The notes below the pieces were generated by a model. That model searched no databases, was not told the DNA's origin, and saw only the letters and a list, made by a program, of their open reading frames with translations. The position numbers and the translations under genes are program-made. From positions 1-15,016 of the forward strand of contig JAKLLI010000112.1 in NCBI GenBank assembly GCA_023150195.1: a stretch of 15,016 bases of DNA. The letters are read 5' to 3'. This DNA comes from Azonexus sp. Lineage in GTDB: Bacteria > Pseudomonadota > Gammaproteobacteria > Burkholderiales > Rhodocyclaceae. The first letter of the stretch is position 1. The number at the start of each line of letters is the position of its first letter. Positions 8,146 to 13,680 of the stretch are shown piece after piece.

Positions 8146-8651
8146 TCAGCGCTTCAGCAGGCTGGCCGCGGCCTCGTCCAGGTCTTTTTGGCGTACCCGC
8201 CCCAGCTTTTGCCCGATGACTTCGCCCCTGGCATTGATGAAAACGGTAAACGGCAGGCCGCCCTGAACATTCCCGAGGGCCTTCATCAACGGTAAACCGT
8301 GTTCCCTGGCCAGAAACACCGGATAGTTCATTTCGTAAGCCTTGACGAAGTCGCGCACTGCCTCGGCATCGTCCTCAATCCCGATGCCCAGCACCTCAAT
8401 GCGGCCCTGATGGTGTTTGCGGAATGCTGCAAGTTCCGGAATTTCGGCCCGGCAAGGCGGGCACCAGCGGGCCCAGAAATTGACCACCAGGGGCTTGCCG
8501 CGGTAGCCGGAAAGCGCTACCGGCTTGTTGTCGGGGTTGCTCAGGGTGGTGGCGAACAGGTGGTGGCGAACAGCGTGTCGGCGGCATTTTCAGCGTGGGC
8601 GGTCGACAGGCAGCAGAGGGCAAAAATCAGGCTGCGGAACAAGGTTTTCAC
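8146..8651 (-). pseudogene. TlpA/ResA-like thioredoxin, frameshifted by a 14-bp tandem duplication
   Basis: A GTG start at 8651 opens a signal peptide (MKTLFRSLIF... ending AHA), but this frame stops at 8541-8543 after 36 codons. The remainder, with FWARWCPPCRAEIPEL and a GLPFTVF cis-Pro loop, continues in another frame from about 8550 down to TGA at 8146. Removing one copy of the 14-bp repeat at 8545-8572 joins both parts into 163 residues with no stop. In that product the CPPC cysteines are 59 and 62. TlpA proteins are periplasmic reductants; in Bradyrhizobium TlpA reduces ScoI and the CuA site of CoxB. A GTG at 8487 could start the thioredoxin core without any export signal. The gene ends 7 nt from the convergent relA. 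It could be a recent mutation, an assembly error or a reversible switch. Confidence 0.85.
8545..8573. repeat. Perfect 14-bp tandem duplication (two copies)
   Basis: GGTGGTGGCGAACA is present twice head to tail at 8545-8558 and 8559-8572, and the period extends one further base. It lies inside the TlpA-like gene near the predicted mature N-terminus. Fourteen is not a multiple of three, so it causes the frameshift described for that gene. Confidence 0.95.
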
Positions 8652-8712
8652 GGGGAATTCCAATCAAGGGTTGGCTGCGATATTAGCATCCGGCGAAATG
8701 CCAGACTTCCTG

Positions 8713-8733
8713 ACTGCGACAATTTGTCGCAGT
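8713..8733. promoter_or_regulatory. 21-bp palindrome, candidate RegA/PrrA-type operator
   Basis: Arms ACTGCGACAA and TTGTCGCAGT are perfectly complementary around a single T. The core GCGACAATTTGTCGC fits 14 of 15 positions of the RegR/RegA box as I recall it (GNGRCRTTNNGNCGC). It lies between the divergent TlpA-like gene and the copper operon. On the minus strand a TAATAT (8680-8685) would put the palindrome near -50, a position suited to activation. A close relative lies upstream of regB at 13663-13680. The symmetry is seen directly; binding by RegA is inferred. Confidence 0.6.
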
Positions 8734-8823
8734 GTGCCGTTCAATGCCTGTGAAACAATGCAGCCCATTGGCGGAGACGGCTTGCCTGAATGACAATGCA
8801 GCCTTTGCCCCACTGGAAGCCCT

Positions 8824-9294
8824 GTGAATAAAAAGATCCTCATCGACCTGATTGGCCTGCTGCTTATCGCGCTGATCGGGGTTGTCGGCTACAAGTTGTC
8901 GCCGCTGCTGTTGCCCAAAAGCGATGTGACCGTGACGCCGGACGCACAATGCAACTTGCAGCAAAACCCCTGTGCAGTGGGCTTGCCCGGTGGTGGCGAA
9001 CTTCAACTGGCTTTCGGGACCTTGCCGGTGCCGCTGGTGCAGGCCTTTCCAGTCAGTGTTCGGGTGCAGGGCGAAGCGGCGCAGCAGGTGGAGATCGATT
9101 TTTCCGGCGTGGACATGAACATGGGCTTCAATCGTCAGCGCCTGGCAGCGCAAGGCGAGGGCATGTTTGCCGGTGAAGCCACTTTGCCCGTTTGCGTCAC
9201 CGGACGCATGGTCTGGCAAGCGACCGTGCTACTTGAGCGAGGCCGGGCGCGGATTGCTGTGCCTTTTCGTTTTGTCACCGGGGAAGCGCACTGA
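8824..9294 (+). CDS. Membrane-anchored FixH/YtkA-like protein of the copper operon
   Basis: A 156-residue protein with one N-terminal transmembrane segment (about 6-30) and a periplasmic domain. A late segment carries DMNMGFNR (97-104) and a G-x-F-x-G-x-x-x-LPVC pattern (112-124), which resembles FixH/YtkA-like beta domains found in copper and oxidase assembly loci. C43, C50 and C124 plus M98 and M100 are possible metal or redox residues. The start is GTG, preceded by GGAAG at 8815-8819; the frame is closed upstream by TGA at 8791. The stop overlaps the start of the SCO gene (TGATG), so the two are co-translated. The family assignment is by pattern only, and the function is not known to me. 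Confidence 0.75.
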   Translation: MNKKILIDLIGLLLIALIGVVGYKLSPLLLPKSDVTVTPDAQCNLQQNPCAVGLPGGGELQLAFGTLPVPLVQAFPVSVRVQGEAAQQVEIDFSGVDMNMGFNRQRLAAQGEGMFAGEATLPVCVTGRMVWQATVLLERGRARIAVPFRFVTGEAH

Positions 9295-9896
9295 TGTCGG
9301 AACGTCTGCTCGCCGCCCTGGCCGCACTCCTCGCCCTGATACTGGTTGGGGTATTCCTGTTCTGGCATCCGGATAACGGGCCTGCCCAGCGTCCCGTGAC
9401 GACATTGCCACCCGGGGGCGATTTCACGCTGATGTCGGCGGATGGCAAGGTTTCCCTGAGTGACTATCGGGGCAAGGTCACCCTGGTGTATTTCGGCTAC
9501 ACCTATTGCCCGGATATCTGCCCGACGTCGCTGGCCGCGACGGCGGGCGGTCTGCAGATGCTGAGCGCGGACGAGCGGGCGAAGCTTGCCATGTTCTTTG
9601 TCTCGGTCGATCCCAAGCGCGACACCCCGGAGCGCCTCAAGGAATACGCCAGTTTCTTTGATCCGATGATCATCGGCATGACCGGCACGCCGGCAGCCAT
9701 TGCCGAAGTTGCCGGGCGCTATGGCGTGTTCTATTCCGAACAGGCGGTGGAAACGGCTGGCGACGGCTACGTGGTCGATCACTCGGCAGAGACTTACCTG
9801 ATTGGCAAGGACGGCCAGTTACTGGCCCGAATTGCCCATGCAACCCCCTCGGACAAGGTGGCTGCCTTGATCCGCCAATATCTGAACCAACCTTGA
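9294..9896 (+). CDS. SCO1/SenC family copper-binding assembly protein
   Basis: A 200-residue SCO protein with an N-terminal membrane anchor (about 5-24) and a thioredoxin-fold periplasmic domain. The copper ligands are visible: C72 and C76 in CPDIC, and H163 in VVDHSAETYL. SCO proteins deliver copper to, or reduce, the CuA site of cytochrome c oxidase subunit II. A SCO gene (prrC/senC) is linked to the RegBA/PrrBA system in Rhodobacter, and a RegBA pair is also present in this window. The ATG overlaps the preceding stop by one base, and PCuAC follows 11 nt later, so the three form an operon. Confidence 0.93.
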   Translation: MSERLLAALAALLALILVGVFLFWHPDNGPAQRPVTTLPPGGDFTLMSADGKVSLSDYRGKVTLVYFGYTYCPDICPTSLAATAGGLQMLSADERAKLAMFFVSVDPKRDTPERLKEYASFFDPMIIGMTGTPAAIAEVAGRYGVFYSEQAVETAGDGYVVDHSAETYLIGKDGQLLARIAHATPSDKVAALIRQYLNQP

Positions 9897-9907: not shown

Positions 9908-10375
9908 ATGAAGCAAATTTCCCTGATTTTTGCCGGTTTGACGCTGTCGACCGCCGTATTCGCCGGTGCTGCCGATCAGATCGTGGTCCAGGACCCTTAT
10001 GTTCGTCTGGCGCCGCCGAATGCACCGGCGACGGGTGCCTTCATGGTGATTCGCAATACCGGTGCGACCGATGTCAAAGTCCTCAAGGCGGCTAATCCGG
10101 CGTCCAAGGTGACCGAACTGCACACCCATACCAATGAAAATGGGGTCATGAAAATGCGGCCGGTGCCCGCGATTGACGTGCCGGCCAAGGGCCAGGCCGT
10201 GTTGCAGCCGGGCGGCCTGCACGTGATGCTGATCGACATGAGGGCACCGCTCAAGGAAGGGGATGTGGTGCCGATCACCCTCGGCTTTGACGATGGCAGC
10301 AGCAAGCAGGTGGATGCCAAGGTGGTGCGTCAGGTCCCCGCCGGCAACATGCCGATGATGCAGCACGCCCACTGA
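9908..10375 (+). CDS. PCuAC-type periplasmic copper chaperone (DUF461)
   Basis: A 155-residue protein with a signal peptide ending VFA. The ATG at 9908 is chosen because AAGGAG (9896-9901) lies 6 nt upstream; an earlier in-frame TTG at 9893 is unsupported. The complete Cu(I) site of the family is present: H72, then ten residues, M83, then 21 residues, H105-x-M107. The protein ends in a Met/His-rich tail (MPMMQHAH), possibly a further copper site. PCuAC collects periplasmic copper and passes it to SCO or directly to oxidase subunits. It is the last gene of the copper operon, followed by a strong terminator. Confidence 0.93.
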   Translation: MKQISLIFAGLTLSTAVFAGAADQIVVQDPYVRLAPPNAPATGAFMVIRNTGATDVKVLKAANPASKVTELHTHTNENGVMKMRPVPAIDVPAKGQAVLQPGGLHVMLIDMRAPLKEGDVVPITLGFDDGSSKQVDAKVVRQVPAGNMPMMQHAH

Positions 10376-11806: not shown

Positions 11807-11835
11807 GCCCGGGGCGCGCTATCCGCGTACCGGGC
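11807..11835. other. Interrupted inverted repeat between convergent antiporter and regA genes
   Basis: GCCCGG and CCGGGC, with inner CGCG and CGCG arms and a 2x2 internal loop, surround CTATC. It covers the end of the antiporter transcript and the last codons of regA. There is no T-tract on either strand. A weak shared transcript end is possible. Confidence 0.3.
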
Positions 11836-12361
11836 GCTTTGCCAGTTTGCGCTGCAAGGTGCGGCGATGCATCTTGAGCGCCCGCGCGGTGGCCGAAATA
11901 TTGCCCGCGTGTTCGGCGAGAATGCGCTGGATATGTTCCCATTCCAGCCGGTCGACCGAAAGCGGCTCATCGGCCAGTTCATCGGGATTGTCGAGCGGGG
12001 CATCATCGAAGGCCGCGAGGATAGCTTCAATTTCCACCGGCTTGGCCAGATATTGCGTGGCGCCGCGTTTCACTGCCTCGACCGCGGTGGCGATGCTGGC
12101 GTAGCCGGTTAGCACGACAATCCGGCAGTCGGGCTGGATGGCCAGTAACTCGGGAATCAGGGCGAGGCCGGAACTGCCATCCAGATTTAAATCCAGTACC
12201 ACGCGCTCGCAGGCCTGCCCGGCCGCCAGCCGCAGGCCGTCTTCCCCGGTCAAGGCGCCGCAGGCCGCATGACCGCGACGGGTCAGCGTGCGCACCAGCA
12301 GACTGTTAAATGTCGGATCATCGTCGATGACCAGAATGGGCATTGGACTGGTTTGGCTCAT
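11819..12361 (-). CDS. regA: RegA/PrrA/ActR-type redox response regulator
   Basis: A 180-residue response regulator. The receiver domain shows the acidic pair D13-D14, the phosphorylated aspartate D57 (VVLDLN), T85 and K107 (AKP). A linker leads to a Fis-type helix-turn-helix (about 154-176, NISATARALKMHRRTLQRKL), as in RegA, PrrA, ActR and RoxR. These regulators control respiration, nitrate and CO2 metabolism genes under low oxygen. The ATG overlaps the regB stop by 4 nt (ATGA), so kinase and regulator are translationally coupled. The gene name is chosen by the family and its kinase partner. Confidence 0.9.
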   Translation of the reverse strand: MSQTSPMPILVIDDDPTFNSLLVRTLTRRGHAACGALTGEDGLRLAAGQACERVVLDLNLDGSSGLALIPELLAIQPDCRIVVLTGYASIATAVEAVKRGATQYLAKPVEIEAILAAFDDAPLDNPDELADEPLSVDRLEWEHIQRILAEHAGNISATARALKMHRRTLQRKLAKRPVRG

Positions 12362-13617
12362 GTGCTCACCAGCGGCAGTTCGATACGGGCCAGCGCGCCG
12401 CCATCATCGGGGTTGAGCAGGCGCAGGCGGCCACCCAGTTGCTCGATGGCCGAGCGGGTCAGCATCAGGCCGACGCCACTGCCTTTTTCGTGGGCCGGCA
12501 TCGCGCTGCGTCCGCTGACTGCCAGCACACTCTCGGGGAAACCCGGGCCGGCATCGCGAATCTCGATATCGAGCTGGGTGCTGCCCCAGGCCAGGCGGAT
12601 TTCCAGTGGGGCGTTACTGGCATTGGCGCCATTGTTCAGCAAGTTGAGGACAGCCTGTTCCAGCCGTGGATCGATGATCATCTCCGGTGCCGGACCATCA
12701 CTGCAGCGAATCAGGCGACTGGCAGCCTGTGGCCGCACCGCGTGCCAGTGCAGCCGCAGTCCATCGAGCCAGCGGTCGACCGGCTGTTTGAGCGGATTTT
12801 CCAAACGCTCGCTGCCGCCACGTCGCGACAGCCCGGTGATGATTTCCTTGCAGATGCCGATCTGCTGGCGAATCAGCGCAATGTCTGCGCGTTGCTCGGC
12901 CGTAAGGTGGGTATCCCGTGCCATTTCCCCTGCGGCGAGCGCCATGGTCGCCAAGGGGGTGCCCAGTTCATGAGCGGCGCCGGCGGCCAGCGTGCCCATG
13001 GCCATGACCCGCTCGTCGCGCAGGGCCTGTTCCCGCGCCTCGGCCAGTTCGGCATCGCGGCTGCGGATCATCTGCGTCATGTGCAGGATCAGCCAGCCGA
13101 TCATGACCGCAGAAACGGTGAAGGTCAGCCACATGCCGCTCAGGTGAAGTTGCGTGGCCCGGCTGGCATCGGCAATCGACAGCGGCAGATAAAACACCAT
13201 CAGCAGCGAATACGCGGCAATTGCCGCGCTACCGACGACCAGCACATGACAGCGCGGCAATGTCAATGCGGCAATGGCGACCGGCGGCAGCAGCAGCGAG
13301 ACCAGGGGATTGGTGGCGCCGCCACTGAAGAACACCAGGGCAGAGAGGGCGGCGATGTCGATCAGTAACTGACTGCTCAGTTCGTTGGCACTGGCGGTAC
13401 GCGCTTTGCGCAGATGCCAGTGAACCGGCAGATTGAGCAGGGCGGTGGCACCGATGATGCCCAGCATGGGCCACTGTGGAAGTGGTAGGTCAAGGACGGC
13501 TGGCGCCGCCATCACCAGCAGGGCCGTCAGCGACAGAACCAGCCAGCGTCCAATGGCGAGACGACGCAGATGGTCGAGATATTCGGCGCTGTCGACGATA
13601 CAGAAGGAAAAGGGCAT
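12358..13617 (-). CDS. regB: RegB/PrrB/ActS-type redox sensor histidine kinase
   Basis: A 419-residue membrane kinase with about six N-terminal transmembrane segments. Two RegB hallmarks are present: GGATNP (99-104), close to the GGXXNPF quinone-responsive motif between helices, and the H-box AAHELGTPLAT with H216. C256 in GICKEI stands where RegB has its redox-active cysteine. The ATPase part shows an N-box (LEQAVLNLLNNGANAS), DAGPGFP and GSGVGLML. The kinase senses the quinone pool and redox state and phosphorylates RegA. It is encoded just before regA, with overlap, and a candidate RegA site lies 46-63 nt upstream of its start. Confidence 0.92.
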   Translation of the reverse strand: MPFSFCIVDSAEYLDHLRRLAIGRWLVLSLTALLVMAAPAVLDLPLPQWPMLGIIGATALLNLPVHWHLRKARTASANELSSQLLIDIAALSALVFFSGGATNPLVSLLLPPVAIAALTLPRCHVLVVGSAAIAAYSLLMVFYLPLSIADASRATQLHLSGMWLTFTVSAVMIGWLILHMTQMIRSRDAELAEAREQALRDERVMAMGTLAAGAAHELGTPLATMALAAGEMARDTHLTAEQRADIALIRQQIGICKEIITGLSRRGGSERLENPLKQPVDRWLDGLRLHWHAVRPQAASRLIRCSDGPAPEMIIDPRLEQAVLNLLNNGANASNAPLEIRLAWGSTQLDIEIRDAGPGFPESVLAVSGRSAMPAHEKGSGVGLMLTRSAIEQLGGRLRLLNPDDGGALARIELPLVST

Positions 13618-13662: not shown

Positions 13663-13680
13663 TGCGTCAATTTGCCGCAG
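13663..13680. promoter_or_regulatory. Candidate RegA-type site upstream of regB
   Basis: TGCGTCAATTTGCCGCAG matches the core of the palindrome at 8713-8733 at 16 of 18 positions. The 15-bp core fits 13 of 15 positions of the RegR/RegA box as I recall it. It lies in the 77-nt gap before regB. The two differences break perfect symmetry. Autoregulation of regBA through this site is inferred. Confidence 0.5.

Follow-up and report, generated by a model that had tools for sequence, protein, structure and literature searches.

The locus studied here raises the question of what acts at a long palindrome shared by two divergent transcription units. The window, by which we mean the whole stretch of DNA analysed (15,016 nucleotides of Azonexus sp.), has a three-gene operon on the plus strand, to the right of the palindrome. 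The first gene (8824..9294) encodes a 156-aa protein, hereafter DUF, that matches nothing in Pfam or NCBIfam and, used as the query in a plasmid search, returned a single weak match. It is followed by genes for a SCO1/SenC protein (9294..9896; PF02630, 1.1e-42) and a copper chaperone of the PCu(A)C type (9908..10375, with the start as set by the gene caller; PF04314, 1.2e-38). The divergent gene to the left, on the minus strand, encodes a TlpA/ResA-like thioredoxin (8146..8654). Its frame is broken near a tandem repeat, a 14-nt unit doubled at 8545-8572 within the gene, and its N-terminal portion is read in a different frame from the remainder. The break may be either a true lesion or an assembly error. 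The reading that we hold to be highly probable is that the palindrome core serves as a RegA/PrrA/RegR-type operator, and that RegA, from a regBA pair 3 kb away, binds it and sets transcription of DUF-SCO-PCuAC.

A perfect palindrome with a conserved core

The palindrome, ACTGCGACAATTTGTCGCAGT, occupies positions 8713..8733 and belongs to neither strand. Arms ACTGCGACAA and TTGTCGCAGT, each of 10 nt, flank a single central T, and all 10 pairs match. The original prediction had described this 21-bp repeat as near-perfect; it exists, and is in fact perfect (10+1+10). The same prediction held ten-base arms to be unlikely by chance. In agreement, dinucleotide shuffles of the 172-nt gap produced arms of at least 10 nt, with a loop of at most 1, in 2 cases of 3000, and whole-window shuffles did so in 7 of 150. 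By shuffles alone, the palindrome is rare, but this is not proof. Conservation of the palindrome core is the stronger evidence.

Orthologous promoters were drawn from the best 80 SCO loci among a larger number of matches, on contigs of named genomes. A DUF homologue lay upstream in 45 of the 80; the 39 with at least 45% identity were taken, and the six under 45% were dropped. In the window and these 39 promoters, covering 200 nt upstream, GCGRCAWWWTGYCGC occurs exactly in 27 of 40, with at most one mismatch in 34, and with at most two in 35. Its reversed control, at up to two mismatches, occurs in none of the 40. Conservation upstream of orthologous copper operons had been set beforehand as a test, and this the core withstood. 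The box is missing from the 200 nt upstream in orthologues L027, L031, L033 and L037, and in L018 the box is present solely at -324.

The conserved core, GCGACAATTTGTCGC, spans 15 nt (8716..8730, neither strand) and is a candidate RegA-type operator, given its conservation in promoters and the co-occurrence with RegA described below. Among the 35 box promoters, information content is 1.4 and 1.7 bits at the CT preceding the core, and 1.3 and 1.2 bits at the two bases following it, mostly AC (AG in the window). The outermost palindrome pair carries 0.4 bits each. Note that bit values within the core are partly built in, because the 35 promoters were picked by the motif, while the flanking bases played no part in promoter choice. 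Other long perfect palindromes at the box are those of L029 (19 nt), L055 (17 nt) and the distant L060 (17 nt). Judged from these promoters, the unit under conservation is the core with its nearest bases, and not the entire palindrome.

Could the palindrome instead form a hairpin or terminator at the RNA level, or be an inverted repeat that arose by chance? Its arms are perfect, and the 7 shuffled windows noted above contain one equally long. Conversely, a scan of 8600-8850 gave no terminator-like site, and the hairpin or terminator was rejected as a candidate. Furthermore, the core is kept despite substitutions (G to A, C to T) that disrupt strict pairing, and it has a fixed place upstream of the inferred -10 element. 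We regard a role in RNA, or an origin by chance, as extremely improbable.

A RegBA-like pair and its candidate operator

The original prediction noted a RegBA pair 3 kb away, and the sequence does encode a RegBA-like pair, on the minus strand ~3 kb to the right of the palindrome. The response regulator (11819..12361) scored 162.8 bits against NCBIfam NF033791, far ahead of other models and under the cut-off of 250; because of that cut-off we call it RegA-like. The histidine kinase (12358..13617) is RegB-like by its profile matches, the best model being NCBIfam NF033792 (217.8 bits, under the cut-off of 350). The regulator consists of a receiver and a Fis-type HTH, as in PrrA. The HTH aligns with that of PrrA (1umq), and the DNA-binding helix is common to PrrA and 3rqi, which we take to be a B. 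pseudomallei structure. This helix, MHRRTLQR, is found in 31 of 31 relatives.

Two features of the pair depart from published descriptions. The equivalent of Cys156 in group 1 RegA, as given in the available text of PMC9147068, is a cysteine in none of 31 RegA sequences (25 have Asn and 6 have His; the window has His). Hence, the copper-dependent disulfide model set out in that text was ruled out, the cysteine being missing. The quinone motif, GGXXNPF in the available part of PMC8191878, reads GGATNPL in the window, where the final residue differs; this region is GGATNPL in 23 and GGAANPL in 6 of 29 RegB sequences. RegB Cys256, 40 residues past the H-box His216, is kept in 29 of 29, and is a candidate counterpart of the redox-box cysteine (Cys265 of R. 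capsulatus).

How well does the core match known operators? The R. capsulatus RegA pattern fits exactly, but this pattern has 33 matches in the window against 19 expected, and the RegR pattern fits with one mismatch, which is chance level in the window. The claim that the core fits the RegR/RegA/PrrA box is thus right for RegA as an exact match, and loses force on specificity and on RegR. Consensus matching as sole proof was discarded. A looser pattern, GCGRCANNNTGYCGC, gave 2 matches against 2 for controls in the genome of the window, and 85 against 47 in six other genomes. Because separation from controls was poor, we adopted an AT-centred form of the box, which was chosen only after the relatives had been inspected.

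Occurrence of the box follows RegA

A second RegA-type box, GCGTCAATTTGCCGC, is located at 13664..13678 (neither strand), 61 nt from the regB start codon. With up to two mismatches, GCGNCAWWWTGNCGC is present upstream of regB in 29 of 29 distinct promoters, including that of the window, and 25 are within one mismatch. The reversed control was found in 3 of 29. These promoters belong to regB matches of at least 40% identity beginning within 45 residues. The box is 61-68 nt from the start codon in 28 promoters and 94 nt away in one. The presence of such a site suggests that RegA may act on its own operon, with autoregulation as its likely role.

Strict boxes occur in 75 of the 76 genomes of the genus (274 boxes against 16 control matches). 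G040, the sole exception, is also alone among genomes of at least 90% completeness in lacking a RegA orthologue. Three genomes that are 70-88% complete (G024, G066 and G071) have 2, 2 and 3 boxes, yet no RegA orthologue in the contigs searched. Across 300 genomes of the order, there are 228 boxes against 38 controls in the 137 with RegA, compared to 50 against 43 in the 163 without. Genomes with a strict box number 92 of 137 and 35 of 163, respectively; the box is absent from 45 of the 137 with RegA, among them G147, which also has nosZ. Within 18 families holding both kinds of genome, the box is present in 39 of 67 with RegA and in 15 of 78 without (permutation p ~1e-4).

It could be argued that the box is bound by some other regulator, perhaps one dedicated to nosZ or copper, that tends to share genomes with RegA. 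Many boxes adjoin genes for nosZ, SCO, NosL or TonB-dependent receptors; some genomes have a RegA paralogue, and a LuxR-type regulator gene is beside the box in some. However, the excess of boxes over control tracks RegA, with or without nosZ. Genomes of the order with RegA and no nosZ have 173 boxes against 31 controls, whereas those with nosZ and no RegA have 11 against 5, and 8 of the 11 are in G318. The boxes ahead of regB in all 29 promoters count against another regulator, as does the single RegA match, at E <=1e-30, in the genome of the window. We consider this explanation unlikely. G318 itself has 8 strict boxes, a control of 0 and no RegA match at 1e-30; several of its listed sites are of one form.

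We conclude that the palindrome core is very probably a conserved switch bound by RegA. RegA control of the copper operon is well supported by sequence, because the core is conserved, regB promoters carry boxes, and box and RegA co-occur. The identification of the core as a RegA site therefore draws on these results, and on the helix shared with PrrA, more than on the consensus match, which is weak alone.

Promoters shared with nosZ

The gene across the box from DUF-SCO-PCuAC is a divergent nosZ in 22 of 39 relatives and tlpA in 6 of 39. Over the full scanned span of the 35 box promoters, the FNR-like pattern TTGAYNNNNRTCAA, with up to two mismatches, has 37 matches against 5 for reversed controls. 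The match begins precisely 45 nt from the start of the box in 23 of 35 promoters, and at 43-46 nt in 25. Note that these fixed spacings are not independent events, since the promoters are related by descent, and that in L023, L024 and L045 spacing was anchored on the downstream one of two adjacent boxes. Sites at 43-46 nt are found in 21 of 21 nosZ-linked promoters with the box in reach, 1 of 7 tlpA-linked promoters (window included), none of 4 with other neighbours, and 3 of 3 contig-end cases. A second RegA-like box is exactly 16 nt upstream of the first in 14 of 35 promoters. In a second promoter set, FNR-like sites at 42-47 nt occur on the DUF side in 5 of 10, the SCO side in 2 of 8 and the nosZ side in 0 of 16, and in this set the reversed FNR control clustered too, with 6 at one offset.

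A sigma-70 consensus scan at the window's promoter gave no match, and the -10 element was instead placed from relatives. The sequence GAAAATG, with up to one mismatch, starts 80 nt from the box start in 18 of 35 promoters. In the window, GACAATG is 76 nt from the box start, and the putative -10 of the copper operon, ACAATG, is at 8793..8798 on the plus strand. The GAAAATG position puts the FNR centre 32 bp from the -10 centre, presumably the class II distance. At the matching position of the window (8761..8774, plus strand, 45 nt from the box start) the sequence is not FNR-like. In the window's lineage, tlpA stands where many relatives have nosZ, this promoter lacks an FNR-like site, and the RegA box is retained. 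Just past the palindrome there is also a 21-nt direct repeat (8745-8765 and 8783-8803; 81% alike and 38 nt apart), the second copy of which contains the inferred -10.

With tlpA in this place, the site might mainly be for the divergent gene, and the copper operon might merely share the gap. The box is 67-92 nt from tlpA-like genes in four relatives, and in three tlpA-linked loci (L004, L014 and L022) the side facing tlpA carries an FNR-like site, 68-69 nt ahead of the box start. However, the box remains ahead of the operon whatever the other neighbour (nosZ, tlpA or else), the -10-like GAAAATG keeps its operon-side distance in those 18 promoters, and the window's own tlpA-like frame is broken. 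We think it very unlikely that the site mainly serves tlpA, and favour RegA control of the copper operon.

In a tree of the three operon proteins, which has a midpoint root and weak deep nodes, tlpA-linked loci are in three places close to nosZ-linked loci. On the simplest reading, nosZ would have been lost repeatedly from this promoter, the FNR-like site would mostly have been lost, and the RegA box kept. A broader proposal, to which we give about an even chance, is that RegA is the master switch of nitrous oxide reductase metallation in these betaproteobacteria, by way of a composite operator that fires nosZ and SCO/PCuAC jointly. This operator would comprise the RegA box, frequently another box 16 bp upstream of it, and an FNR-like site whose centre is 44.5 bp from that of the RegA box and 32 bp from the -10. 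Boxes at NosL, TonB-dependent receptor and regB genes would complete the circuit, and the departure of nosZ would usually cost the promoter its FNR-like site while the RegA box stays.

Redox state and copper delivery

How might such a switch operate? RegB would sense quinone or redox state, as established in other species, and reducing conditions would place RegA on the box to aid RNA polymerase at the operon promoter. DUF-SCO-PCuAC would then be transcribed from the promoter with a -10 near 8793-8798. From the same box, RegA perhaps also governs the divergent tlpA-like gene and, through the second box before regB, may feed back on its own operon. In many relatives, the box would be the hub of a divergent promoter, with nosZ on one side, DUF-SCO-PCuAC on the other and an FNR-like site at constant spacing. 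Low oxygen would thereby switch N2O reductase together with the proteins that probably load its copper. We infer RegA binding, its positive sign, the redox signal, and NosZ or an oxidase as the copper client.

The original prediction tied copper loading of cytochrome oxidase to redox state through RegA. The RegA site is well supported by sequence, but the data do not single out an oxidase as the target; since the box is between nosZ and the operon in those 22 of 39 relatives, NosZ is no less likely than an oxidase to receive the copper. According to the available text of PMC7558416, SCO and PCuAC proteins assemble the CuA and CuB sites of oxidases, TlpA reduces CuA cysteines and, in P. denitrificans, SCO/PCuAC serve NosZ at low copper. 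Hence, the window's client could be an oxidase or NosZ. The sign of RegA action could also be either. In B. pseudomallei, nosZ is activated by RegA and a SCO1/SenC gene is RegA-dependent in aerobic culture (PMC8191878, available in part), and B. japonicum RegR binds the nosR promoter and activates nos genes (PMC4064962, likewise). Conversely, R. capsulatus nos genes are marked as RegA-repressed in the accessible portion of PMC5359404.

Like the box here, the RegA, PrrA and RegR boxes known from R. capsulatus, R. sphaeroides and B. japonicum are inverted repeats built of GCGNC-type half sites around a 5-nt centre (PMC5506826, in the part available). Alphaproteobacterial sites are described as degenerate in the accessible text of PMC5506826 and PMC4263372, whereas the box here is much sharper, GCGRCAWWWTGYCGC, with a constant centre. 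The same portions state that RegA motif prediction was not possible for At. ferrooxidans (PMC5506826), and that no strong PrrA motif could be predicted for R. sphaeroides (PMC4263372). As in our case, a RegA-type regulator acts on nosZ in B. pseudomallei, there together with FNR (PMC8191878), and RegSR controls nos genes in B. japonicum (PMC4064962). However, the available text of these two papers has no box shared by nosZ and SCO-PCuAC, and no fixed RegA-FNR spacing, both of which we found in relatives.

The Rhodobacter regB-senC-regA cluster is similar in having a SCO gene near regBA, and in linking copper delivery to the redox pair (PMC9147068, in part). This old linkage of SCO (PrrC/SenC) to PrrBA, invoked in the original prediction, is alike in kind; it differs in that the window's SCO gene is not cotranscribed with regBA (opposite strands, with intervening genes) and that the copper-tied Cys156 is absent, as in all 31 RegA sequences. 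In P. denitrificans, pcuC, senC2 and Pden_4445 are needed for N2O reduction at low copper (PMC7558416, partly available). As here, PCuAC and SCO are joined by a protein of unknown function, although Pden_4445 and the 156-aa protein are paralleled by description only.

A literature search, mostly without subscription journals and with papers available in part, gave no RegA box at SCO-PCuAC and no RegA regulon in Dechloromonas or Azonexus. We conclude that this is a real, conserved site of a known kind, with an unusually sharp motif, and that the composite layout of relatives is absent from the literature searched. If our model is correct, one redox signal would set both the amount of N2O reductase and its copper supply, in a group that includes Dechloromonas and Azonexus. 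This enzyme destroys the greenhouse gas nitrous oxide, and where copper is low or oxygen changes, weak coupling could contribute to its release. A motif this sharp would further allow the RegA regulon to be predicted in these genomes, whereas in alphaproteobacteria the degeneracy described for the sites is said to prevent this.

Other boxes and their neighbours

The genome of the window has one further strict box, on contig C97 (L116:4165-7306), flanked by a Sec-type nosZ and an additional SCO gene. The two genes diverge, and an FNR-like site is 43 nt from the box on the SCO side. We surveyed the neighbours of 61 strict boxes, on 52 stretches from 16 genomes, a non-random sample in which genes were called with a home-made program. 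Neighbours included nosZ (16), the DUF operon (10), TonB-dependent receptors in two groups (9 and 6), SCO (8), LuxR-type regulators (7), Sel1-repeat proteins (6) and tlpA (5). NosL, regB, TonB and ECF sigma factors had 3 each and a RegA paralogue had 1. Some boxes are common to two genes, and 3 of the 61 are inside a called gene. Note that neighbour clusters take their names from scans of one or two members, or from likeness to window genes. In one batch, 5 of 16 stretches (L106, L109, L112, L114 and L115) have weaker boxes only, and were not counted.

In six stretches (L101, L105, L107, L170, L178 and L182), the gene for a TonB-dependent receptor is across the box from a divergent gene, the scanned member of which has Sel1 repeats. 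A copper-receptor label for TonB-dependent receptors at boxes was dropped, TIGR01778 being under its cut-off in both receptors tested. Mutually similar short ORFs, of 46-58 aa, are 56-93 nt from the box in L103, L151, L176 and L180. Finally, L169, L173 and L184 each have two nosZ copies, ~7 kb apart, and each copy has its own box.
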